Below, piece after piece: positions 3,633 to 40,937 of a stretch of 64,000 bases of DNA (position 1 is the stretch's first letter; each line of letters opens with the position of its first letter). The notes beneath the pieces were generated by a model, which searched no databases, was not told the origin of the DNA, and worked only from the letters and a program-made list of their open reading frames with translations. The stretch is from assembly GCF_018141425.1 (NCBI RefSeq), contig NZ_CP058561.1, positions 2,728,001-2,792,000 on the forward strand, written 5' to 3'. The position numbers and the translations under genes were made by a program. This DNA comes from Vallitalea guaymasensis. Its GTDB lineage: Bacteria > Bacillota > Clostridia > Lachnospirales > Vallitaleaceae.

Positions 3633-3660
3633 AGACTGGGTTAGATAACTCAGTCTTATT
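3633..3660 (+). terminator. Terminator after spoVT
   Basis: AGACTGGGTT pairs with TAACTCAGTCT across a short loop, followed by TATTTA. Confidence 0.65.
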
Positions 3661-3854
3661 TAATGCATCTTTGCGATATTAGTAATATATGACTATTCAT
3701 AAGAGCATATATTACTATGAGGCATAACTTAATGCGACCTATAGTAAAATAAAAAAAATTGATAATATTAAACTAATTTACATAGACTACAAAAAATATT
3801 TATTTATTAGTAAATTATATTATGGTATAATTTGTTATATATTATCTGATTGGA

Positions 3855-27192: not shown

Positions 27193-27229
27193 ATTGGAAA
27201 ATTTAGTGATATAATAGGTAAGTGTATCT

Positions 27230-27317
27230 GGAGAGATGTCCGAGTGGCTTAAGGTGGTGGTCTCGAAAACCACTGTGCGGCAAAACCGCACCGAGGGTTC
27301 AAATCCCTCTCTCTCCG
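27230..27317 (+). tRNA. tRNA-Ser (anticodon CGA)
   Basis: The acceptor stem GGAGAGA pairs with TCTCTCC, with G as discriminator. The anticodon stem GTGGT/ACCAC holds the seven-base loop CTCGAAA, giving anticodon CGA (reads UCG). A long variable arm (TGTGCGG...CCGCAC) marks a class II tRNA, and the T arm is GAGGG TTCAAAT CCCTC. CCA is not encoded. Its 3' part is the integration site of the element that follows, and a partial second copy lies at 40881-40937. Confidence 0.95.
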
Positions 27318-27318
27318 T
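27287..27318 (+). repeat. Left attachment core (attL), within tRNA-Ser 3' end
   Basis: 32 bp from the variable arm through the T arm and acceptor to the first base after the tRNA, identical to 40906-40937. Confidence 0.85.
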
Positions 27319-27377
27319 CATTACAAGGCTTGGGTAGACATGAGTATATATTCATGCCTATAAAACCCGTTACACGT

Positions 27378-27396
27378 GTGCCTAAAACGTGCCTAA
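27378..27396 (+). promoter_or_regulatory. Possible integrase arm-binding sites, left
   Basis: GTGCCTAA occurs at 27378-27385 and 27389-27396, 11 bp apart, covering the end of the integrase gene. A matching pair with the same 11-bp spacing lies near the right end at 40735-40752. Confidence 0.5.
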
Positions 27397-28439
27397 GCCT
27401 GGTAATTTAATATCACCCAATAATCTTTTTTGAGATTCAATGGATGAGTGAATGTAGGTATCCGTTGTTATTTTGGTTGTTGAGTGGCCTAACTTATCAG
27501 CTACAGTCTTTAAGTCCTTTCCCTTATTAAATAGTATAGTTACGTGAGTATGCCTTAATCCATGGAACGATATGTGGTAGTTATATTTCCTAGCAATTAT
27601 GGTAAACCTTTTACCTAATGTGACAGGATTTATAAATCGTCCGTCTGGTCGCCTGCAAAAGAATCCACTATCTATATATTGAGGACCATATTTGAGTTGT
27701 TGTTCTTTTCTTTGAATTAGATACTGCTTTAGTATTCTTGATACATCAGGGAATATATATACAGGTCTAGTACTTCTATGTGTTTTAGTAGAGTCTAGAG
27801 TCCATTTTTTTTCTATATACACCAAGTTATCCTTAACATAAATTTCGTTACGATCTAAATGAATATTATAGTCTTGTAAGCCACAAATTTCACCTTCACG
27901 CATACCAGTAGTACCAGCTAATAATACAGGTATGAAATAATCGGTATTTTTGAATATATGAAATAATCTATAGAATTGTTCTTCTGTTATAAATTTTGTT
28001 TCAGGGGTTGTTGCTTTTGGCGGTTGTACGCTTTGAGCATAGTTGAAAAGAATCATTTGCCAACCAACCGCATGTTTGAACATTTGATGTAATAACCGAT
28101 GATGTTTAAGTGCTGTTGTACCAGAAAGCCAGCACCACCTATTACTTTAGGTTTAGTTAAATGAGTATAGTAATTTTGAAGAATTATAGGTTTAATTTCT
28201 TTAATGTTCATATCCCCAAAGTATGGTATTATATGATTCTTCATCATCAGTCTATATCTTTTTTGGGTATTTAGTTTTACGTTTAAAACGACATAGTTGT
28301 CATACCAAATCTCGCAATATTGTCTCATTGTTATATGACCACTTAAAAGATGCTTATTTTTTTCGTGCTCATTCAAGTATTCTCGCATAGCATTATTAGC
28401 TTCCTTTTTAGTCGCGTATGGACCTTTTAGATAAACTCT
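27382..28439 (-). pseudogene. int: Tyrosine-recombinase integrase, frameshifted and 5'-truncated
   Basis: The catalytic domain is intact, with Arg in GTTGMREGEICGL, the HGLRHTH box, GHSTTKIT and the Tyr in TDTYIHSS. The core-binding domain (MRQYCEIWYDNYV...IIPYFGDMNIKEI) is in another frame. The two join if one A is restored in an A run near 28100, giving VQQHLK-HHRLLHQMFKHA. Upstream, readable sequence (YLKGPYATKKEANNA) stops soon; the usual N-terminal arm-binding half is missing, and the frame runs into the repressor remnant. The gene would have excised and integrated the element at tRNA-Ser. In its present state it should be inactive. Confidence 0.88.
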
Positions 28440-28700
28440 TTATCTAAATACCATTTTATTAATTGTGTCAAATCTTGTCTTTGTTTTTCATTGAGCTTAT
28501 CGCTATGTTCTTCTAACAATGAATATGCTTCTGTTAAATTTTTTTCAACTTTATTAGAATACCCTTTACTTTCATGAAATGTTATATTAACGTCTTCAAT
28601 GCCTTTACCAGAAGTAAAGTACTCTACATCAACATTAAATATAATGCTAATTTATTAAGTAGATCAGTATCAGGTTTTCTATAATTATGTTCTAGTGAAC
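28427..28700 (-). pseudogene. Remnant of a phage-type (CI-like) repressor
   Basis: Minus-strand translation gives HSSLEHNYRKPDTDLLNKLA, then after restoring one T a NVDVEYFTSGKGIED stretch, and ends in QRQDLTQLIKWYLDKEFI. This is the pattern of an XRE helix-turn-helix repressor: the end of the HTH, then the linker. The N-terminus and part of the HTH are missing beyond ~28700. Its stop overlaps the truncated start of the integrase, so a deletion appears to have removed the region between them. Confidence 0.6.
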
Positions 28701-28750
28701 TGTGCCATAGCTATAGAGAAAAGGGTAAGAGCAAGAAGAAACAAATTGTT

Positions 28751-29362
28751 TTGTTTTCAGCCGATTACTATAGACTTGTTGAAGAAAAATGGTTTTGTTT
28801 ATGGGATTATATGTGGTTAGAAAATCCTAAAAGAAATCAAGTCTTTACTTCTTTTTGCTCGTTTGTTGGAATTGAATTTGATAATATGTATGACTTTATA
28901 GAATCGAAAGTAGAAAGAGTAAGAAAACCATTAATCAAAGAATACAAGCAGACAGAGGAATACAAGACTAGCAAAAAGCATGATGGAATAATCACAGCAC
29001 ACCGTAAGGCTAAAAAAGAGTTTGAGGAAAAGTATGGAACTTGTACATATGATATGTGCTACACCGTATTTGGAGAGTTATGGAACACAAAAAAACTTGA
29101 ACAAATAAAGGCTATTTATAAAACTAAACAGAAATATAAAGAGCAGTATAGTAACTATTACAACAATAACAGCTACAGTAATAGCAATTATGATTACAGT
29201 AGCTTATTCTCAGCAACATCAGCTTATACAGACAAAGAGAAGGACATGCTTAAAACTATCTATAAACGAATGGCTACAGTATTTCATCCAGACAATAAAA
29301 ATGGTGATGAAGGAATAATGAAATTTATCAATTCTAAGTTAAAAAACGAATGGGGTATATAG
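28751..29362 (+). CDS. J-domain-like protein, probably 5'-truncated
   Basis: The C-terminal ~50 residues resemble a DnaJ J-domain, with the HPD motif in ATVFHPDNKNGDEGIMKFIN. The middle is a charged helical region followed by an Asn/Tyr/Ser-rich linker (SNYYNNNSYSNSNYDYSS). The annotated start is a TTG without a ribosome site. The same frame is open back to about 28695 (HSYREKGKSKKKQIV), so the original N-terminus was probably lost at the junction with the repressor remnant. J-domain proteins recruit DnaK; the client here is unknown. Confidence 0.55.
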   Translation: MFSADYYRLVEEKWFCLWDYMWLENPKRNQVFTSFCSFVGIEFDNMYDFIESKVERVRKPLIKEYKQTEEYKTSKKHDGIITAHRKAKKEFEEKYGTCTYDMCYTVFGELWNTKKLEQIKAIYKTKQKYKEQYSNYYNNNSYSNSNYDYSSLFSATSAYTDKEKDMLKTIYKRMATVFHPDNKNGDEGIMKFINSKLKNEWGI

Positions 29363-29467
29363 TGGATACTAAGTAATTTATCCAGTATCTACAAAAGGAA
29401 GGAGATAATATGGTTATTAATGCAAAAAAATAAGACCTACATTCAAAACATAGATATGATACCAGCC

Positions 29468-29511
29468 AAGATAGGCTATATAACTCCGACAAGTCTATTA
29501 TAGCCTATCTT
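29468..29511. repeat. 13-bp inverted repeat in decayed region
   Basis: AAGATAGGCTATA and TATAGCCTATCTT are exact complements 18 bases apart. No T run follows. The surrounding 29363-29804 contains only broken coding remnants. Confidence 0.55.
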
Positions 29512-29569
29512 GACAAGAAAAACAATATCAAATTAAGGTTAAGACTTTGATTAACAAATGAGGTGATAA

Positions 29570-29680
29570 ATGTTGAAGGGCTGTATCTTAATAAGTAGAA
29601 CAATTATTGAAAGTAAAATATGGCAGAAACCACCTCTTTACATAAAGGTATGGCTAACAGTATTTGTCCTGAACCTCTAA
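29570..29680 (+). pseudogene. Stub of a DnaD-like replication protein
   Basis: A 36-residue reading frame with a good ribosome site (GAGGTGAT) contains SRTIIESKIWQKPPLYIKVW. This resembles the N-terminus of DnaD-domain phage replisome organisers (SRKIxESxIWxKPPLYLKVW). It stops where the family normally continues. I read it as the remains of the element's replication gene. Confidence 0.5.
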
Positions 29681-29804
29681 TGCCAAATGGTAACACAACT
29701 TAAAGTAAAAAAGAATCGTGATGGTGGCAAGGGAATTGTAGATATGACATACATAAAAGAAAGATTAGTATTCAAGGAGAGTTAATTAATGGATATTAGC
29801 ATAC

Positions 29805-30044
29805 TTGGAGAAATTAGAAACGATACAGATGTATTATGTTAGAGCATATAAAGGAAACGCATATAGTGACAGTGAAATAAAGTCAACAAAATGCTTGATA
29901 AAAAATCATGATTTTTATGATGTTGTTAATAATGAATCAGTAACTTTTAAATACCAATTATCTCCAGAAGAAAAGCCGACTTGTTATAAAAATAATTATA
30001 GCGTTAATTACTATAATGGCAGAACCTATCCTGTATTTATTTAA
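29805..30044 (+). CDS. Hypothetical protein, uncertain
   Basis: A ~79-residue frame with no recognised motif; it is rich in Tyr, Asn and Lys (MYYVRAYKGNAYSDSEIKS). The start is unclear. It lies in a region of broken genes and may itself be a remnant. Confidence 0.3.
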   Translation: MEKLETIQMYYVRAYKGNAYSDSEIKSTKCLIKNHDFYDVVNNESVTFKYQLSPEEKPTCYKNNYSVNYYNGRTYPVFI

Positions 30045-30368
30045 CCTATAGAGAGTCGATGGTTCCTCAAAAGAACCACTGACTTATGCCACCTAAATTT
30101 TAAGAGGGCTATAACTCAAGGTCGGTTTTAACAAATGACCTTTGAATTGTTAGACGACTTGAAGGCTAAAGATTCGGACTGTTTAAAAGTAAACATAAAT
30201 GGATATACTGTATAATGTCTACTACATAAAAAGTGGTGACATTGTATGTCACTCTTGACATAATATAATATTTTGAGTATTATTAAAGTGTACCCCATTT
30301 GTACTCCAATGCAATAAATAAAAAGTAAGCAATTAGCCGAGCAATTGGCGATCATTTTATATTAAAGA

Positions 30369-30413
30369 AAAATAATCACAGTCCTACTGGCAGGCAGGTG
30401 TGATTATTTTTTT
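30369..30413. terminator. Terminator hairpin at the 3' end of the toxin gene
   Basis: AATAATCACA pairs with TGTGATTATT across a loop containing CCTGCC/GGCAGG elements. A T run follows on the plus strand, and a shorter T-rich stretch on the minus strand, so it can work both ways. It overlaps the toxin stop codon. Confidence 0.75.
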
Positions 30414-30493
30414 GTCGTTTTAGTTGTATTTATAATTGCAATGACAAGCATTGCAAATAGTATCATAAGAGATAAACACTCATAAATAGACAT
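30404..30493 (-). CDS. Type I toxin, Hol-Tox/TxpA-like hydrophobic peptide (29 aa)
   Basis: A 29-residue peptide with the pattern of Firmicute Hol-Tox/TxpA toxins: start MSIYECLSLMILFAMLVIAI, one membrane helix, then a Thr/Lys-rich tail (TTKTTKK). The very strong AAGGGGGTGA ribosome site five bases before the ATG is typical of these genes. So is the hairpin terminator directly over the stop codon. Such peptides damage the membrane unless an antisense RNA silences the mRNA. The antitoxin RNA is not obvious; it could run on the plus strand into the shared terminator. The locus may have helped the element to persist. Confidence 0.75.
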   Translation of the reverse strand: MSIYECLSLMILFAMLVIAIINTTKTTKK

Positions 30494-30735
30494 AAGCGTC
30501 ACCCCCTTATCTTTAGTGGGAGTATCGCCAATCACCCTGCATAATTGCTTACTTAAAATCTATTATACACCATAGTTTATCTCCTGTACAAGATAAATTG
30601 AAATAACAATAGCCTACCTAGCAACGATTTTCCGATTTGGAAGCATAATATCAATTGAAGGTAGGTCTTTTAAGTTAATTACATATAATAGTTCTATTTA
30701 TTACTATTTACTAAAAGAAAATTTAGTACAGATAT

Positions 30736-30776
30736 AAACCTACTTCATTAATTAGGGGTAGGTTTTATTTTTTTTT
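30736..30776 (+). terminator. Terminator hairpin
   Basis: AAACCTAC pairs with GTAGGTTT across a 14-base loop, followed by TATTTTTTTT. It lies upstream of the unknown operon. The gap 30494-30928 otherwise shows no gene. Confidence 0.65.
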
Positions 30777-30928
30777 GCACAAAAATAAATTAAGTCGTGG
30801 TAATGTCGTTTAGTTATGGGGCATACTAAAAAAATACTGCTCAAACTATTTGAAATAATTGAATTCTGATGTATAATAATCAACAACATAAAAAAATATC
30901 ATAAATTAATATATAAGGGGAGAGGAGT

Positions 30929-31483
30929 ATGATAAATTTATTAGAGCAAAGAGGTGGACTAGATATGCTAAAAACACTTTTTTTATATCTCAAAACATCT
31001 AATGATGCTTGTAGTGGTAGTAAGTATATTTATTCCTTTAGTAATAGGAAAATAGTGGGCGTTGATGTAGAACGATATAATACCAAGAGTAGTAGATACT
31101 CTCTGCAACATGAATGCAAAATTAACCCCTATAAGTTGTCTAATGAGATATTTAGTAATTTATTTAATTATGGAATAAATAATGCTAACCATATTAGAAT
31201 AACAAATATTGAAATGCAAGACTTTGAGAGTGATGACATAGAAGAACTTCATATATTATTAGAGAACTTGCTATACAATCGCTATGATAATATAATTGCT
31301 AACTTGAACTATATTATTGATGTTTATGATGCTAAATTAATGAGTATTACCTTCAAATACAAAGGATATGACATTAAATTAGGAAGTGAAGGTGTGGTTC
31401 GAATCGATGCACCAAATGAGGTCTTTTCTGATTTTTTATATGATAAAGAGATCAATTCATTAATATTAGGTGCGAGATTATGA
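30929..31483 (+). CDS. Protein of unknown function (first gene of the unknown operon)
   Basis: I do not recognise this 184-aa protein. A strong GGGGAGAGGAG site precedes ATG 30929; ATG 30965 is an internal alternative. The sequence is mixed alpha/beta without membrane helix, signal peptide or obvious catalytic motif. It contains SNRKIVGVDVERY and a C-terminal TFKYKGYDIKLGSEGVVRID. Its stop overlaps the next start (ATGA), so the two are translationally coupled. Confidence 0.7.
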   Translation: MINLLEQRGGLDMLKTLFLYLKTSNDACSGSKYIYSFSNRKIVGVDVERYNTKSSRYSLQHECKINPYKLSNEIFSNLFNYGINNANHIRITNIEMQDFESDDIEELHILLENLLYNRYDNIIANLNYIIDVYDAKLMSITFKYKGYDIKLGSEGVVRIDAPNEVFSDFLYDKEINSLILGARL

Positions 31484-32120
31484 TTAAACTATTTAGGGAT
31501 ATATCAAAGAATGGGTTGCTAAAAGAATTTATTAGGGTAATATTGCTTAATATCTTTTATATTCTTTTTGCAGGATCTGTAGGTAAATTTTTAGGTTTTT
31601 GCAGATTTTTACTAAACCAATATGTGTACAGGCTAAAATAATGAATACAGTTACTGACGATAGAACATATTTGGTACAAGGCAAATACAATGAATATAAT
31701 CAAATGATTTTAGTATTAGAAGTATGTGATGTAATTAGCAAATGGAAAAAAGTAGCCTTGTGGTACATAAATAAAAAGGGTTCTCTGTGGGTTGATATTT
31801 GCATTGAAGATAATAAGAAAAGTATGATACTTGCTCCGATAGCTGTATATAGCGACGAATATAATATTCATGAGTATGGATTTACGTATAATATATCAAA
31901 AGCAATATTGAACAATTTAAAGCATAGTGAAGAGACTAGGTATGAAGTGAAATTTCAGGCAAATCTAAATAGTGATGCAAATCAAATTGCTACTACGAAT
32001 TGTACAAAGACTATAATTCCTAGAATCTGTGTAGAAAACGCAAATGGATTCATTCTATCTAAATTAATTAAATTAAATACTAATGATAAACCTTTTAAAG
32101 TGGTTTATAAATACAATTAG
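31480..32120 (+). pseudogene. Protein of unknown function, apparently frameshifted (second gene of the operon)
   Basis: Translation from ATG 31480, which overlaps the previous stop, gives a 53-residue piece with one membrane helix (IRVILLNIFYILFAGSVGKF). It ends at ~31640. A second frame, open from 31599 to 32120, gives a 173-residue soluble piece (QIFTKPICVQAKIMNTVTDD...). Joining them near 31590 needs one indel in the T-rich GGTAAATTTTTAGG. The downstream piece has no ribosome site of its own. No known domain is seen. Alternatively these are two real genes, the first a tiny membrane protein. Confidence 0.5.
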
Positions 32121-32130
32121 GAGGCATTTT

Positions 32131-32919
32131 GTGAATAGTGTAATATGGAAATTAGATAAAACAATAGATGAGATATATGATTTATTAGAAAAAACTAGGT
32201 GCATTGAATCCGATCACAATAATCCTAGTGTTAATCTTACTTATGAATGGAAAAATAAAAATAAACAAAAAATATCTAATTATGATTGTGTTACTGCAAT
32301 GGCGTGTTTGGATAAGTTCACTGGTTTTAAAGTAAATACAAGTTATAGTCATGCTTTGTTTTTGGAATATAATAACTCAACGTATTGTAATATAATAGGG
32401 GTTAAAGGTGTTGAAGCTCGGATAAGAACTAAGTTAATGGAAAAAGGCAAATATTCGCCTTGGGGTAAATTAATGTTTAAAAATATAGATGGGTATACAT
32501 TCGAAAAAGATTTTTTCTACTGGTTATTAAGTAAAAAAGGGGAAAAAATAGGAAGTAATAATATTACAATATTAGATATAAGTGAATTTCAATGTAACAC
32601 AGATCGAAATGCTGACAATTATAGTGGTGTATCAAGATATGGAAACATTGATAACAAACCACCCTTACAAGCGTTAATAAGTGCTTATGAAGATATAAGT
32701 AGTTTGCAAATGCATATTAAAAAGAATAATAATCAATATGTCTTTAGATTAGATAATGATGGAAGAGTAGATATAAAATTAGAAAGCTGTGGAGAGTTCG
32801 CCACTCAAAATCCACAGCAATTAAGTATTTTTGAAGCAGTTATTCATATTTATTATACTATTATACCATTGCTGCGACAGCAATACAATAAAGATATGCA
32901 AAATAGATGGAAGGTATGA
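32131..32919 (+). pseudogene. Protein of unknown function, 3' end displaced by insertion sequences (third gene of the operon)
   Basis: GTG 32131 is the likely start, six bases after AGGAGG; the frame is open further upstream but overlaps the previous gene. The 262-residue remaining product has no motif I recognise; the start is DKTIDEIYDLLEKTR and the middle is polar. The last codons lie in the 27-bp target duplication of the IS1202-like element. On the far side of that element (from 34742) the frame continues (RWKDTILQSLIQDNAISLIS...MSIDDIQKL) until the IS1182-like remnant. The true C-terminus is therefore lost. Confidence 0.65.
32888..32914 (+). repeat. 27-bp target-site duplication, left copy
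   Basis: 27 bases identical to 34715-34741, flanking the IS1202-like element. Confidence 0.9.
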
Positions 32920-33046
32920 TTGATTTATGATAATGTCTTAGTGTACCACAATTGATTATGTCCTATTTTTTTTAATTATGGTATATAATAAAACCTCATG
33001 TATTTTATAGGCAGAGGTGATTATCATTAGAAAGGTAGACTTAAAC

Positions 33047-34456
33047 ATGACAGAACAATATAAATATGAAATTATTAAAAGATTAGTTGAAACTAAAGGG
33101 AACAAGGACAATGCAGCTCTGAAACTAGGCTGTACTAGACGAAATATAAATCGTTTAATCAAAGGTTATTTAGATCAAGGAAAGATTTTCTTTATCCATG
33201 GTAATCGTGGTCGTAAACCATCACATACAATAGAAGACAATATCAAAGAAAATATCTTAAATCTTTATCGAACAAAATATTATAACACAAACTTCACTCA
33301 TTATTGTGAGTTGCTAGAAGAGCATGAAAAAATCAAGGTTTCTGTAAGTACTGTACAAAACATTCTTATGTCTGAAGGGATGCTTTCACCTAAAGCTAGA
33401 CGTGTTACTAAAAAGAGAATGCGTCTTAAGTTGAAAAAACAAAGAAATGCTACTAAATCAAAGAAAGAGGTTGCTAAAATTACAGAAAACATAGTTGCTC
33501 TTGAAGATGCTCATCCTCGTAGACCACGCTGTGCTTTTTTAGGTGAGATGATTCAAATGGATGCTTCTGTACACTTTTGGTTTGGGGATAAAAAAACTCA
33601 TCTACATATTGCTGTTGATGATGCTACAGGAACTGTTGTTGGAGCATATTTTGATAGACAAGAAACGTTGAAAGGCTACTATAATGTTTTTCATCAGATT
33701 TTAAATAATCATGGTATTCCCTATATGTTTTATACTGATAGACGTACTGTCTTTGAATATAGGCAAAAAAAATCTCCTTCTCTTGAAAAGGATACTTTTA
33801 CTCAGTTTGGTTATGCTTGTAAACAGTTAGGGGTCGAAATCAGAACAACCAGCAATCCACAAGCCAAAGGTCGCGTAGAACGAATGTTCCAAACATTACA
33901 ATCACGCCTACCAATCGAATTAAGATTAGCAGGCGCAACAACCATAGAACAAGCAAATATATTTTTGGACTCCTACATACAAAAATATAATGCTAAATTT
34001 GCTCTGCCTCTTAATAATATCAAATCTGTTTTTGAAAAACAACCCGATAATGAAAAAATTAATCTTACTCTTGCAGTTCTTGTAAATCGTAAGATTGATA
34101 ATGGTCACTGTATCAGATTAAACAAAAAGTATTATAAACCTATAGATTCTAATGGCTACCCTGTTTATTACCATAAAGGTACACTGGCTCTAGTTATTAA
34201 ATCTTTTGATGGACAACTATTTACAAGCATAGGAGAAAAAGTATACACTCTAGACGAGATACCAGAACATGAATATACATCAAGAAATTTCCATTACCCC
34301 CAAAGCACTGAAAAACCTCGCAAAAGATATATTCCACCAATGTCTCATCCGTGGAAAAAGAGTACTTTTACAAAGTTTGTTAAAAAGCAAAAACACTATT
34401 ATGAACAATCCTTTGAGTCTGCAATGTACTCCCAAGCTTTGACCATTGCTAAATAA
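33047..34456 (+). CDS. DDE transposase of the IS1202/ISNCY group
   Basis: The protein (~470 aa) has an N-terminal helix-turn-helix (NAALKLGCTRRNINRLIKGY), then an rve-type integrase core. The catalytic residues are readable: Asp in IQMDASVHFWF, Asp in FYTDRRTVFEY and Glu in AKGRVERMFQTLQ. A C-terminal DNA-binding part ends in basic residues. ATG 33047 was chosen; the frame is also open from GTG 33017, which sits within a GAGGTG stretch. The gene looks intact, so the element may be active or recently arrived. Confidence 0.9.
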   Translation: MTEQYKYEIIKRLVETKGNKDNAALKLGCTRRNINRLIKGYLDQGKIFFIHGNRGRKPSHTIEDNIKENILNLYRTKYYNTNFTHYCELLEEHEKIKVSVSTVQNILMSEGMLSPKARRVTKKRMRLKLKKQRNATKSKKEVAKITENIVALEDAHPRRPRCAFLGEMIQMDASVHFWFGDKKTHLHIAVDDATGTVVGAYFDRQETLKGYYNVFHQILNNHGIPYMFYTDRRTVFEYRQKKSPSLEKDTFTQFGYACKQLGVEIRTTSNPQAKGRVERMFQTLQSRLPIELRLAGATTIEQANIFLDSYIQKYNAKFALPLNNIKSVFEKQPDNEKINLTLAVLVNRKIDNGHCIRLNKKYYKPIDSNGYPVYYHKGTLALVIKSFDGQLFTSIGEKVYTLDEIPEHEYTSRNFHYPQSTEKPRKRYIPPMSHPWKKSTFTKFVKKQKHYYEQSFESAMYSQALTIAK

Positions 34457-34489
34457 AATTCCATAAAAATAGCTTTTATGCCGCGAAAG

Positions 34490-34625
34490 TCTATTTATAA
34501 TGAGAAAATGGCATGTTATGCTTTCTTTACAAGGCATCCCATGCTTTACTTGCTATGCCACAAAACAGGTTAGGGGATGCCTCTGATGCATCAAAACATG
34601 CCATTAGAGGCTCGTTGTAAATAGA
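34490..34625 (+). other. 136-nt hairpin structure in the IS 3' region
   Basis: TCTATTTATAATGAG (34490-34504) pairs with CTCGTTGTAAATAGA (34611-34625) through 15 pairs, two of them G.U. Nested inside are AATGGCATG/CATGCCATT and AAGGCATCCC/GGGGATGCCT. G.U pairs suggest the structure matters as RNA. It lies 34 bases after the transposase stop, inside the element. Confidence 0.6.
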
Positions 34626-34714
34626 ACCGTGGAATAAATGCGGAAGTTATTAAAGCACCTAAAAATCGGTGCTTATATTTTGAAAATTTCGGGACATTTT
34701 CAAAAATGCTTGAC

Positions 34715-34741
34715 ATAAAGATATGCAAAATAGATGGAAGG
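34715..34741 (+). repeat. 27-bp target-site duplication, right copy
   Basis: Identical to 32888-32914. It is followed by the displaced 3' continuation of the interrupted gene (34742 to ~34843). Confidence 0.9.
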
Positions 34742-34843
34742 ATACGATCCTGCAATCGTTAATTCAAGATAATGCTATTTCATTAATCAGTACAATGTTG
34801 GATGAAACAGGTATGTCAATAGATGATATTCAAAAGTTAAGGG

Positions 34844-35648
34844 GCTGTTGCATTAGCCAATAAAATTGGCTAATGCAAGCCTTTTTTTGTGCATTGATTA
34901 ACTTCTTTGACAGCATATCTAATACTAATTTTCAAAAATGGGGTAATTTAATAGACGTTCCAATAAACGTATAAAATATATTGATTCTGTAAAATTTAAA
35001 TACTAAAAACTATGCACTTTTCTTGACTGAGTGTAGATATTTCCCTAGGCGACCATTTTGTATTTTTCGATGTAGTTTATTCATGTTATTTCCTAAGGCG
35101 AGAAAGATACTCTCAGCTAAAACATTCTGTGTACCACGGGTTAAATATCTTCTGAATCCCATATCCTGTTTGATTTGTGCAAAGGAGCCTTCTGCTTGAA
35201 TACTTCTATTTATCCGCAACTCAATACCTTCATCACTAACTATCCGTACCAAATCCTCTTTTCGATATTTCATGAATTCTTTAGAAATCTCTAAGCGTTT
35301 GGTTCTTTCTTCTAACGGTGTTTTACAGTTGCGTCCTTTAATGCACTGGGCTTTATAATTACTATCTTTGCAATCTTCGCATTGATACTGGGTCTTTACC
35401 ATCTGGTATCCTGTTCTACTTTTTCTGTTAATTGTACCTGTTACTTCTAGGCGTTTGCCATTCTTACAAATATAGGTATCTGTATCCTTTTCATAATCCA
35501 TATTTTCTACACGGCTAATATCATTTTTGTATTTTCGCTTCTTTGATATTTCGTAGTTTGCAGGTTTTATAAAAGCTATCTGTCCATTTTTCTCTATAAA
35601 TCCATAATTTTCTTCGCTTTCATATCCTGCATCAGCCACTACTAAATG
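34844..35648 (-). mobile_element. IS1182-like insertion-sequence remnant
   Basis: The left edge begins GGGGCTGTTGCATTAGCC and forms a terminator-like hairpin (TTGCATTAGCCAA/TTGGCTAATGCAA plus T run), typical of IS1182 ends. The other end is missing: transposase sequence stops at ~35648 and unrelated DNA follows. Confidence 0.75.
35010..35648 (-). pseudogene. IS1182-family transposase, C-terminal half only
   Basis: The readable part starts at (L)VVADAGYESEENY, which is the middle of the DDE domain, and continues through a Cys-rich zinc-ribbon-like insert (QCEDCKDSNYKAQCIKGRNC) to the conserved Glu region RSIQAEGSFAQIKQDMGFRRY and LALGNNMNKLHR. The first half, including the first catalytic Asp, is absent, so the gene is dead. 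Confidence 0.85.
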
Positions 35649-35725
35649 TCAAGTTAGGTATAAAAAAATTAATTGTTAGTATTTAAACATTTGATACGAA
35701 ATAGAACGTAGATTTGGAGGTTTTT

Positions 35726-36415
35726 ATGAATTATTTAAATGAAGTGAATAGTTTGAAAAGTTGATATGACATAAAATATGATCTAGATAAATTGCCTGAT
35801 AAATGCCCAATATGTAATTATGCATGTGAGCCAATTCCAGTACTCTCTTATAATAGAGGTAAAAATTTTAACGATAATAGTGAAGTGGTTTTTCTAGTAT
35901 GTGCTTGTCCAAGAAACGATTGTAAAGAATTATTTTTGGTAAGATATAAAAAGATATATTATGATGCAGATATGTATAGTTTGGTAGGATATTCACCTTT
36001 TAAGTATAAAGACATAATTTTTGAAGAATGTATTTCTGATATATCCCAAACTTTTGTAGATATATATAATCAAGCAATGAAAGCAGAAAAGTATAATCTT
36101 ATTGATATCGCTGGTGTAGGGTATAGAAAGGCACTTGAATTTCTAATAAAAGATTATTCAATCAAGAAAAATCCTGATAGCAAAAATGAAATAGAAAACT
36201 CGTTTCTAGGCAAATGTATAACCACTTTTATAAAAAATGAAAACATTAAACTATGTGCAAAAAGAGCTACATGGATAGGAAATGACGAAACACATTATCT
36301 AAGAAAATGAATTGATAAGGATATTTCAGATATGCGGGCATTAATAAATTTAACGATTAATTGGATAATAATGAAAGAAAATACAATTAAATATCTAAAA
36401 GAAATGAAAGATTAG
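35726..36415 (+). pseudogene. DUF4145-like protein with two in-frame TGA codons
   Basis: A strong GGAGG site lies six bases before ATG 35726. The frame is interrupted by TGA at codon 13 (35762-35764) and TGA at codon 195 (36308-36310) and ends at TAG 36413-36415, giving 229 residues if both are read through. The part between has a CPIC...CACPRNDC zinc-ribbon-like start. It also has the DUF4145-type segment AMKAEKYNLIDIAGVGYRKALEFLIKDY, and ends TWIGNDETHYLRK. Sequence continues sensibly after the second TGA (IDKDISDMRALINLTINW), where Trp is expected. The simplest reading is two TGG-to-TGA mutations. Confidence 0.7.
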
Positions 36416-36481
36416 TTTTTACAATTAAAGAATTATTTCGTTAATGTATACAAAAAGCAAAACAAGAAAGGGGAATAATAT

Positions 36482-36745
36482 ATGAATTATAATATTTATC
36501 AAGCAAAAAGAATGAGAGAGGAAGGGGATGGGTTACCTTCAATTAAAGAAATTGTAAAAGAAAAGCTAATGAATAGTGATGTAGAATTGAAGAAAGAGCA
36601 AATAGATGAACAAGTCTGTTTAATAATAAAATTGAGTAAGGATGAATCAATTTCTGGTGCAACTAGTACTGCTTTAAGAGAACTTGAATCAGAAGGCAGC
36701 ATAGACCATATATCACATGGGTATTGGAAAAGGACAAGTATATAA
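36482..36745 (+). CDS. Small hypothetical protein
   Basis: I do not recognise this 87-aa acidic protein. GAAAGGGG precedes the ATG. It is predicted mostly helical, with SIKEIVKEKLMNSDVELKKEQIDEQ and a C-terminal ATSTALRELESEGSIDHIS; the latter resembles a wing or helix of a small DNA-binding protein, but this is weak. No membrane segment. Confidence 0.5.
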   Translation: MNYNIYQAKRMREEGDGLPSIKEIVKEKLMNSDVELKKEQIDEQVCLIIKLSKDESISGATSTALRELESEGSIDHISHGYWKRTSI

Positions 36746-36848
36746 AGTTGGTAATGATAACCTGACTTAAGCAAAAGTATTATTTAGGATATTAGTCAAA
36801 AAAACTTAGTTTATACTACTAAGAAATATTCTTCAAGAAGGGGTAATT

Positions 36849-37321
36849 ATGAATAAGATTAAGTTATTAGCAATTTCATTAATACCAATAGTTATAGGAT
36901 ATATAATGAATTTATTAATTCTAGTACCAGGAATAGGTGTTTCTGTATTATATATAATGCCAATTATTATATTGATATATTGGTATTGGTAGGCTTGAAG
37001 TTTTCAGAGACTATTCGTAATCCTTTATTAGGAATTGTAAGTGGTAACTTTTTTGGGATATTATCACTTTGTATTTATTATTGGCAATTTATTATACTAG
37101 ACAATCAAAAAAGAAGTATGTTTTTAGCGGGAATATCACAGTATTTTACTGTTCCATTAAACATATTAACTGCTAAAATTAGTATGCTTTTTGATAAGTC
37201 TCCAAGTATTATTGATCATAATAATATATTAAATATGCATTTTAGTGGGACAATCATAATGATAATAACCTTTGTCATAGGATATATAGTTGGATTAAGA
37301 AAAAATAAGAATCAGCATTAA
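36849..37321 (+). pseudogene. Small membrane protein, frameshifted
   Basis: ATG 36849 (GAAGAAGGGG upstream) gives two membrane helices (LLAISLIPIVIGYIMNLLI and a second ending IYWYW) and then a stop at ~36992. The next frame continues with VGLKFSETIRNPLLGIVSGN and two more helices to 37321. Restoring one G in TATTGGTATTGG-GTAGGC joins them into ~157 aa with four helices. The function is unknown. Confidence 0.6.
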
Positions 37322-37849
37322 AGCACTCCTTAATTGGCACTATACTAAAATAAGCTTTAGGACAGGCAAAGGATTTACTTTCTTAATTGAAGGTAGACCC
37401 TTTTTTATTGCTTATTATTAAATTATTTGTTAATAAATCGGGAAACGTGTTATAATATAGATTAAAGTTATATTTAGTATATACAAATCATAGTTTGCTT
37501 TTATATATTAAGTAATATAAGTAAATATAAAGATTGCACAAATTATAATATTTGAATATATAAACATTAGTTGTAAATATAACTAAAAATGTATGATTAA
37601 TTTAGAGATAAATAATAAAAATAGAATAATAAGTAATATTTAACATATAATATTCTTGTATATTATTGAGATGTTTGTTATATTAACCAAAAATTTAAAA
37701 TGTTATTGAATAAATAATTATTAATAGTATAATATAGGTAAAAGAGTTGAAAAATGTAGATTTATAGTAGATATATATAAATAATAAATTAAATGTTATT
37801 AATGCTGCAGCTTTAATATAAATAAAATAATGTATATGGAGAAAAAATA
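37322..37849. other. AT-rich gap without genes
   Basis: I see no gene in this ~530-base, very AT-rich stretch. A weak hairpin-like stretch with a T run lies around 37380-37408. The rest is A/T-biased and could hold the promoter of the secreted protein that follows. Confidence 0.5.
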
Positions 37850-38743
37850 ATGAAATATATTAAAAAAACAAAAATGTTAAATTTGTTTGCTTTAGTTCTA
37901 ATTATAGTTATGGCAATTCCTTATGTAAGTTATGCACAAACAAGCAATATTAAGAGTGAAAAAGAAATTAAAGATAAAAAAGATTTAGTTAAACAAGCTA
38001 AATTAAACTTTGAAAACTTAAAGGTATCTAATAATAATCTATTGGAAGAAGGTAATAAATTATTACTTGAACTATATAGTGAAGGTTACAGTGAGAAATA
38101 TATCGCTGAGGAAGCAAAAAAATATGGAATATATGTTTTGATTTCAGAAGAAGAACCTGAAATGTCTATGAGAAGTACAGAAACAAATGCAGATGTATCT
38201 AAACCATTGATAAGTTATAATGCAACTGATGATACATGGACTGTCACTGGTGGAGGGTACTGGACCTCTGAATATGCTTTTTATAACGATACAGAGTTAA
38301 AATGGGATACAGGTAAGCGTACTGGAGCAATTGGTAAACTAGATGTTGGAGGAATATCTATAACAAATATTCATGGAAATACGGAAGGAGTAATGATTGA
38401 AGACGCTTACTTATGTTCTGGAGATCAATACAAATTAAATGATAATAATAAGATTAGAAATATAAAAACTGTTAATGATACAAAAGGTGTAGCAATATCC
38501 TTCCAAGATGCATACTATGATTTTACTGGTGAAGATATTTATCAGGGCTACCGTTGGGCGATACAAGCAAAATTTACAAGTGAATTTGCAAATATTTCTT
38601 GTAATATAAAATCATATTTTTTACATACATATAAAAGTGCTAATATAGGAAAATTTCATTTTCACAGTGATGGTACTTTTGATGTAGATATGGAAAATGC
38701 TGAATACTCATGGGATAAATATTCTCAATCAAAAAGTCACTAG
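37850..38743 (+). CDS. Secreted protein of unknown function
   Basis: The 297-aa product starts with a clear signal peptide (basic MKYIKKTK, hydrophobic core, VSYAQT cleavage region). A lysine-rich helical part (~residues 30-100) precedes a C-terminal domain that reads as beta-rich (DDTWTVTGGGYWTSEYAFYND...). No catalytic motif or cell-wall anchor is seen. Lack of Cys-rich or lytic motifs argues against a bacteriocin or lysin. It is cargo of the integrated element, with its own terminator downstream. Confidence 0.7.
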   Translation: MKYIKKTKMLNLFALVLIIVMAIPYVSYAQTSNIKSEKEIKDKKDLVKQAKLNFENLKVSNNNLLEEGNKLLLELYSEGYSEKYIAEEAKKYGIYVLISEEEPEMSMRSTETNADVSKPLISYNATDDTWTVTGGGYWTSEYAFYNDTELKWDTGKRTGAIGKLDVGGISITNIHGNTEGVMIEDAYLCSGDQYKLNDNNKIRNIKTVNDTKGVAISFQDAYYDFTGEDIYQGYRWAIQAKFTSEFANISCNIKSYFLHTYKSANIGKFHFHSDGTFDVDMENAEYSWDKYSQSKSH

Positions 38744-38772
38744 TAAGAATTATTTATTAAAATGATTAAACA

Positions 38773-38820
38773 AATCTCCTACCTGATAGAAGTTAGTTAA
38801 TATCAGGTAGGGATTTTATT
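38773..38820 (+). terminator. Terminator after the secreted protein
   Basis: AATCTCCTACCTGATA pairs with TATCAGGTAGGGATT and is followed by TTATT. Confidence 0.8.
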
Positions 38821-39031
38821 GTTTACTGTAGAGCTTAGTTATTTGTATGTAGCAAGTAGCATTACAAAGATCAGACCTATTAGCATATTAACGATAAATA
38901 GTATCTGAATTAATTCAATGGATTATAGAAAAAAGAACTAGATAAATAGTTCATAATCATAGTTGAATAGAAATTAATATAATAGTAAATACTTTAAGTT
39001 ATTAAAAGTCTTTTTTATGGAGGTAAATTAA

Positions 39032-39592
39032 ATGAAGAAAAAAATTTTTGGGGGGATTATATTATGTTTATTATTAGCTTTTGGTTATAAATATTATTGT
39101 TATAATTATTCTAACGAAGGTATATTAGAGAATGTAATAAATAGAAATGGATATATTTTAAATAAAATAAATGAACCAGTAAGTATCAAATTATTTGTTA
39201 AGCCCGAATGGATACCTTATAATTCTATTAAAGAGGTAGACTTAGGAGAGAAACTTTTAGAATTGCATTCTACAGATATTATTCTAAATAATATTAAAAA
39301 TACTGGAAATAATATTGATTTCAGTTTTCAGACTAAATATAGTTTGAAGTTTAATAGTGGAACATTTATATATAATGGAATTCTCAATGAGAACGGAACA
39401 TGTACATTAATAACTACATATAAAAATCTTATATTATATGATAAAAACAAAAAACAAATTCAGCTAGGTCAATGTGGTTCCAATTCTAAGGGCTTTTCGT
39501 TTAGCATTATACCTGAAAATTATAAATACATAGAAGAAGGGTTTTATGTTGAATATAGTGGATTTATTCTATATGAGTATATAAAGAAGTGA
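39032..39592 (+). CDS. Membrane-anchored or exported protein of unknown function
   Basis: A 186-aa protein with an N-terminal hydrophobic helix (IFGGIILCLLLAFGY) and no obvious cleavage site, so it is probably an anchored extracytoplasmic protein. The rest reads as beta-strand-rich (FSFQTKYSLKFNSGTFIYNG). TGGAGG precedes the ATG. No family recognised. It sits between the secreted protein and the structured RNA in the element. Confidence 0.65.
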   Translation: MKKKIFGGIILCLLLAFGYKYYCYNYSNEGILENVINRNGYILNKINEPVSIKLFVKPEWIPYNSIKEVDLGEKLLELHSTDIILNNIKNTGNNIDFSFQTKYSLKFNSGTFIYNGILNENGTCTLITTYKNLILYDKNKKQIQLGQCGSNSKGFSFSIIPENYKYIEEGFYVEYSGFILYEYIKK

Positions 39593-39725
39593 ATGCTGAT
39601 TTTTTGATTTATAATATATTACTAAATGAATCTGCTTAATAAATACAATTATGGTTTAATGTATTCTAATTACTATGATTATTTTATAAAATTATAATAT
39701 TTAATAAAGCACTGATTAGTACATG

Positions 39726-39752
39726 GGAGTCTACCGTATTGTAGGCTCTTTA
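39726..39752 (+). terminator. Terminator after the exported protein
   Basis: GAG-T-CTAC pairs with GTAG-G-CTC, followed by TTTAAAA. Confidence 0.6.
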
Positions 39753-39816
39753 AAAATACATTCATAAATTAATTAATGAACAAAGGTAAGGTTAATACAT
39801 AATGTGATTTGAAAAG

Positions 39817-40725
39817 GGACTATCCAAAAGTGGACTGTCTTTTTTTTCATTGCTCAATGTGTTCAATACTTAATCACAAAACTGTCCATCTTAGAGCAAA
39901 GTCAATGATATTGACCTCGTTTCGCAAAATTGAGATACCATGTGAATAATGTTTACCCTGTAGTTTTTCCCCAGAAGTGGAGAAGGGTACTTCGATAATA
40001 TCGAACTACCTTTTGTCACAACTTGCTGCGAACAACCTCGACCGACAAAACTGTCGAATGTAAAGAGTGAAATCCGTCCTTTAGAAGATTACTATAATGA
40101 GGTCGGCTCAAATTTGAGCCAATCAAGATAATACCCAGAGGTGCATATAGTGCACCTCCGAAATTTCTGATTTGTTTAAAGGAAAATGAGCTTGATTTCC
40201 CAAAACTGTAAATCAAATTAAGTACCTTTAGGGCTACCCTCTTTTAGAGGGAAAGCTTTATTCTTTAAAGACAAAACTCTCATAAGTCACTGCATGAGGT
40301 GCATCCAAAATTGGACTGACCTCTAATACCGTCCTAGTACTACAGTATGAATTCAAGGTGACATTAGCCCAATCCAAAATTGGATTTAGTAAAATAGGTC
40401 TCCTTAAAATTAAGGAGTCGAATTCTTCAAAGTAACCACGAATTAGGCAGATTTTAAATCGGGCGAATATGCAATCTTAGGTCATTCCCCAAATATGGGG
40501 AAACAGATTAATAGTCCAAATGGGGTTATGTCTAAGTTCACCACCGCCTTAAAATTAAGGAGATGCATATAAGGTTATACATGATGTACAACAAGTAATG
40601 TTAAGCCATGTTAGAGAATGAGGTCAAATACTTTCCCAAGATGTTGGGAATCAAAGGTGCAAGATATGCACTTTAAGTTGGAGGTGATCTATAGCAGGCA
40701 ATTATATATTGTCTGCTTTTTATTA
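39817..40725 (+). ncRNA. Large ornate structured RNA candidate (GOLLD/ROOL-like)
   Basis: Nearly 0.9 kb with no credible gene is packed with short hairpins and closed by an intrinsic terminator at 40693-40725. Clear stems: 39901-39915, 39991-40005 (enclosed by GGTA/TACC), 40043-40056, 40105-40120, 40138-40158, 40237-40251, 40256-40270, 40296-40323, 40371-40386, 40400-40417, 40485-40502, 40547-40560, 40633-40650 and 40654-40674. Most are 4-8 bp stems closing a six-base loop of the type AAAANT. The first hairpin (39818-39839), followed by eight T, may instead be a terminator of upstream transcription. Position next to a tRNA and an attachment site inside a phage-like element matches known GOLLD and ROOL RNAs, which are ~600-850 nt. 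I cannot confirm either class by eye; it may be a new one. Confidence 0.65.
40693..40725 (+). terminator. Intrinsic terminator ending the structured RNA
   Basis: AGCAGGCAAT pairs with ATTGTCTGCT (one G.T) around a TATAT loop, followed by TTTTATT. Confidence 0.85.
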
Positions 40726-40734
40726 ATCAAAAAC

Positions 40735-40752
40735 GTGCCTATAATGTGCCCA
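40735..40752 (+). promoter_or_regulatory. Possible integrase arm-binding sites, right
   Basis: GTGCCTA (40735-40741) and GTGCCCA (40746-40752), 11 bp apart, in the same orientation and spacing as the pair at the left end. Confidence 0.5.
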
Positions 40753-40880
40753 TAAATTATCCACGAATAACGAATTATGCAATAAAATACCCTATGGTAG
40801 TATATAGTGTAATACTTATAAGCTTTATTAAACCTACATTATGGCAATTTATTGTATTATTTAGATGTTGAGGGATTGAA

Positions 40881-40937
40881 CTCGAAAACCGCTGTGCGTT
40901 ACAAGCGCACCGAGGGTTCAAATCCCTCTCTCTCCGT
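40881..40937 (+). repeat. Right attachment site (attR): partial tRNA-Ser 3' half
   Basis: CTCGAAAACC (anticodon loop and stem), a variable arm that differs from the intact tRNA (TGTGCG-TTACAA-GCGCACC), and then 32 bases (40906-40937) identical to the intact tRNA 3' end. There is no matching 5' half, so this is not a functional tRNA. The diverged variable arm still pairs with itself, as would be expected if the copy came from a different but related tRNA-Ser. Confidence 0.85.

Follow-up and report, generated by a model that had tools for sequence, protein, structure and literature searches.

Positions 39848-40725 of the window, the stretch of 64,000 nucleotides of Vallitalea guaymasensis DNA that was analysed, probably encode a large folded RNA (probability roughly 0.6), read from the plus strand or with its strand left open. 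The core of the original prediction was a large folded RNA located where an integrated element ends, and this part is well supported by the evidence that a single sequence can provide. Its proposed membership in the GOLLD or ROOL class was not upheld, as cmscan returned no match to either at E <= 5. The features are collected in Table 1.

Coding content was low. The longest open reading frame inside the stretch had 66 aa (minus strand, 40016-40216), and none of the five frames of at least 30 aa matched PHROGs at E <= 1, in agreement with the predicted lack of a credible reading frame. No tRNA was called inside. The GC content was 0.37, compared with 0.20 across the 211 bases directly upstream; it ranged from 0.34 to 0.41 in 150-base segments, with a step near 39830. 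At the right edge, a consensus terminator scan listed a plus-strand site with a T tail at 40693-40717, in line with the terminator expected there. Three further terminator-like sites from the same scan lay within the region, each on the minus strand, so that four were found in the 2.6 kb scanned against 1.2 +/- 1.2 expected. The left-hand hairpin with its eight T was read from the sequence and was absent from the scan list. It probably ends an upstream unit and does not belong to the candidate RNA, and the start of a plus-strand RNA was therefore placed at about 39848. The originally proposed span of 39817-40725 thus kept its right edge and lost its left one. Promoter-like sites were not above chance, with 17 found and 15.4 +/- 3.8 expected, and the scan found none on the plus strand between 39436 and 39920. 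This lack counts against a plus-strand reading, as does the minus-strand position of three of the four terminator-like sites.

Table 1. Positions within the window of the candidate RNA gene, its internal and flanking features and the integrated element.
Feature	Position	Strand	Remarks
Candidate large structured RNA gene	39848..40725	. (+ slightly preferred)	Hairpin excess, folding energy, GC 0.37, no ORF >66 aa
Longest perfect hairpin	40138..40158	.	8 bp, 5-nt loop
Predicted closed domain, UCACC/GGUGA closing helix around several hairpins	40536..40690	.	Single-sequence folding, predicted on both strands
Terminator-like site (intrinsic type), where a plus-strand transcript is proposed to end	40693..40722	+	10-bp stem, 5-nt loop, T-rich tail
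Terminator-like hairpin (39817-39839) with eight T	39814..39847	+	Read from sequence
Promoter-like TTGATT-18-TATAAT (10/12)	40701..40730	-	Right edge, directed leftward into the region; chance occurrence possible
tRNA-Ser(CGA), left attachment site	27229..27319	+	ARAGORN, Rfam
Partial tRNA-Ser copy (3' part), right attachment site	40881..40937	+	57 nt, 91% identical to the tRNA
Tyrosine integrase over two overlapping frames (broken)	27382..28388	-	ORFs; PF00589, PF14659; phrog_1
Transposase genes	33017-34456 and 35010-35639		Carried by the element

Hairpins were counted as non-overlapping perfect stems of at least 6 bp with at least two G-C pairs and loops of 3-9 nt. The region held nine, compared with 1.02 +/- 0.97 and a maximum of four in 100 dinucleotide shuffles. 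Twelve were counted when 5-bp stems were admitted (loops 3-8) and 17 when mismatches were admitted. The excess behind the predicted "at least fourteen" hairpins is therefore real, while the number itself lies between 9 or 12 perfect and 17 mismatched ones. The count was extended, with loops of 3-8, to 2771 segments of 900 nt from this genome, taken from 864 kb (the window and 40 further stretches of 20 kb each); only three segments contained at least six perfect stems, all of them overlapping this region. Three segments with five stems followed, all in one stretch and all overlapping the RNase P RNA of this genome (L053, 18018-18371; Rfam 314.7 bits). With RNase P RNA as the runner-up of a blind scan, the density measure does find real RNA genes. 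Two 16S genes of this genome showed 2.3 perfect hairpins per 900, and another of its stretches (L021) reached six over and before a 16S gene start in a separate scan with loops of 3-9. The count is not fully specific, as two stretches of other genomes were also rich in hairpins with loops of 3-9. L011, with regulatory and coding sequence of a phage, reached nine per 900, arising partly from repeated operator-like palindromes, and L003, which covers part of a gene and the sequence upstream of it, reached seven. The 9-mer CAAAACTGT occurred three times in the region, with one near copy in addition (39877, 40046, 40201, 40272); any 9-mer present three times was seen in 3 of 200 shuffles. A CRISPR-like or TIGR-like array was rejected, there being no regular repeats in the region.

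Folding energy also departed from chance. The predicted energy of 39849-40725 lay below that of all 100 shuffles, on both strands and in 12 of 12 settings. The strand is left open, with a slight preference for plus based on the edge terminator and on base composition, namely purine and A skew.

A decayed element of 13.7 kb (27229-40937), integrated in tRNA-Ser with both ends identifiable, has the region at its right end. The tRNA-Ser copy begins 156 bases past 40725, close to the predicted distance of about 150 bases to an attachment site. Besides the features of Table 1, the element carries a DNA-binding protein family (phrog_1305) and genes without known function, among them ORF 28751-29362 (phrog_32441), which has a homologue on a phage-like contig of Vallitalea sp. 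McD1.25. In this species of the same genus, a near relative of the integrase was found at the same tRNA. Repeats of the type AACGTGCCTA were seen by eye at 40727-40765, beside the right attachment site, and also between tRNA and integrase in Vallitalea sp. McD1.25 (L013, about 820-850). They are possibly integrase arm sites. Around tRNA-Ser sites, 11 stretches (nine from relatives, two from this genome) gave best counts of 2 to 6 hairpins per 900, the count of six belonging to this genome at a 16S gene. In one relative (G007), an element at a comparable site was, by eye, coding at its right end. Relatives of five element proteins were not found in viral contigs by scans that detect close relatives only, nor in two protein searches of phages, and PADLOC matched none of ten proteins. 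Antisense control of element genes was considered and rejected, since complementary matches of at least 12 nt numbered zero, compared with 1.8 +/- 1.4 in shuffles.

Known RNA families did not account for the region. Nothing in Rfam 15 reached the gathering score, and a permissive cmscan (E <= 5, either strand) gave no match to ROOL, GOLLD, OLE or introns. The best weak match inside was a Rickettsia leader with an E-value of 1.7 and 27 bits, where the threshold is 60. As a positive control, ROOL (RF03087) was found at 130.4 bits (gathering 99.1) in Lactobacillus salivarius pMP118, a plasmid with a described lncRNA (PMC5643018). ROOL was the sole positive control, and GOLLD, represented by its conserved 3' region, gave no match at E <= 5. 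We take the GOLLD model to have been present in the Rfam library used.

Homologues were sought by blastn in the same genome, where the region was present in one copy only (E <= 0.01), in phages and plasmids, which gave no match, and in related genomes, including six of the genus. Among 22 family genomes, four besides the own genome matched over 25-40 nt at E <= 0.05. With scoring limited to the two best candidates of each genome, four of 392 order genomes besides the own matched over 25-40 nt at E <= 0.001, and no others did among 391 class (E <= 5e-4) and 398 phylum genomes (E <= 1e-3). Short matches in six stretches (L003, L005, L006, L007, L008 and L009) were dismissed by eye as coding sequence, terminators or unrelated. 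A 40-nt match of 82.5% in G019 was likewise set aside, as it had no hairpin context (best count 1 in 900, L004). One match of 25 nt (96%) linked 39914-39938 to positions 3641-3665 of stretch L010 from Vallitalea sp. McD1.25, on the contig that also carries the homologue of ORF 28751-29362. An exact 19-nt scan of genome contigs returned four records. One, judged by its length and position, was that same Vallitalea sp. McD1.25 contig; the others came from a Bacteroides, a Chlamydiia MAG and one bacterium MAG, with no evident kinship. In viral contigs, no matches to a 20-nt version or to two other 19-mers of the region were obtained. The few short blastn matches were judged to be chance.

Two single-sequence covariance models of sub-domains were also searched, R1 on 392 and R2 on 344 order genomes. 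R1 had two weak matches besides itself, both rejected as lying, by eye, inside open frames. R2 gave weak matches at five places in four genomes besides itself. Two of these were the G234 sequence already encountered, and one fell inside a 625-aa ORF, presumably HtpG-like. For both models, the matches that were inspected lay in open frames. The R2 matches in G040 and G331 are known as alignments only. In these searches no credible relative was found, and with no homologue in the searched genomes there was no covariation to count. Samples above family level were drawn from larger groups and overlapped, few candidates were scored and the covariance models used stricter filters, so distant relatives may have been missed. 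Among the genomes, phages and plasmids searched, the candidate RNA appears to be an orphan. No paper was found that names this locus.

The main competing explanation is a structured RNA on the opposite strand, starting near 40693 and running left. This is unlikely on balance. The minus strand had the lower z in every run: -6.4 compared with -4.0 for plus at full length (100 shuffles), -6.9 compared with -4.4 at span 150 (60 shuffles), -8.2 compared with -4.4 (30 shuffles) and -10.6 compared with -3.5 (20 shuffles). Because the true strand gave the lower z for four of four control sequences (RNase P, ROOL and two halves of one 16S gene), energy favours minus here, and the promoter-like site at the right edge points the same way. 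However, no T-rich terminator was seen at the left end of such an RNA, whereas plus has one at its right end, and three terminator-like sites fall within it on its own strand. Composition also speaks for plus. The purine, A and G skews of three of three control RNAs lean as the plus strand does here, but more strongly, and the 12 loops examined are A-rich on plus (26 A, 15 T, 5 G, 1 C).

An improbable explanation does without a folded RNA: a cluster of palindromes would act at the DNA level, as binding sites for proteins, as cruciforms, or as hairpins of single-stranded DNA that serve replication, packaging or recombination. The near-perfect stems, the position by the attachment site and two hairpin pairs with common sequence (16 and 13 nt) are compatible with it. 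So is the lack of G-U bias, pairs in or beside the hairpins amounting to 22 G-T and 24 A-C, which would be expected without selection on either RNA strand. However, the ROOL control likewise has no clear bias (14 G-T, 12 A-C). Most stems have sequences of their own and are not copies of one site, and the GC island, A-rich loops and terminator are all RNA-gene-like. A very diverged, undetected member of ROOL or GOLLD is highly improbable. Size, the phage-like element, the nearby tRNA copy and a base composition near that of the ROOL control fit such a member, whereas the search that scored the control at 130.4 bits matched neither family on either strand at E <= 5, and the hairpin style is unlike that of the tested ROOL.

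The preferred reading is a noncoding RNA gene of about 0.85 kb, carried by a decayed phage-like element in tRNA-Ser at the element's right end. Transcription would most likely proceed on the plus strand, starting at about 39850 and stopping with the terminator at 40722, and the transcript would fold into several hairpin domains. The RNA may act as a folded molecule itself, as proposed for ROOL, perhaps with a role during the life cycle of the element, which is a guess from its setting. It is conceivable, though tentative, that it represents a further class of large ornate RNA, one that is new and separate from ROOL, GOLLD and OLE, made up largely of near-perfect short hairpins and carried by tRNA-integrating elements of Vallitalea-like Clostridia. 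If this is true, a large RNA at the end of a mobile element whose hairpin style is unlike that of the tested ROOL would suggest more than one origin of such RNAs, and it would offer another system for asking what large ornate RNAs do.

ROOL is a large noncoding RNA found in phages and prophages, in many cases close to tRNA islands, and both ROOL and GOLLD form RNA cages, an unexpected property (PMC12286853). The base composition of the region is close to that of the ROOL control. The two differ in hairpins, with none perfect in the one ROOL tested and nine here. Hairpin density, which the original prediction had taken as fitting the GOLLD and ROOL class, is consequently no argument for ROOL. 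The contrast in energy is weaker than that in hairpins, since the z of the control was close to -1 for the 543-nt match to the model but -3.8 (true strand) over the 839-nt interval holding it. Large phage and satellite RNAs exist, some of them not assigned to ROOL or GOLLD (PMC12286853, PMC7567579), and the broad kind is thus already known. The phage ICP1 has an ncRNA of roughly 800 nt and the phage satellite PLE the IIR transcript, both large and lacking ORFs; its authors liken the ICP1 ncRNA to GOLLD and ROOL by length only (PMC7567579). The present region is similarly large and ORF-less, although those two were shown to be transcribed, whereas the RNA here is a candidate from sequence. The IIR RNA of PLE is homologous to gene leaders in antisense orientation, in contrast to the candidate, which has no antisense match of at least 12 nt to its element. 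The marks of the broad kind, a large phage or mobile-element RNA, are a long stretch without ORFs and structure beyond chance, and both are found here.
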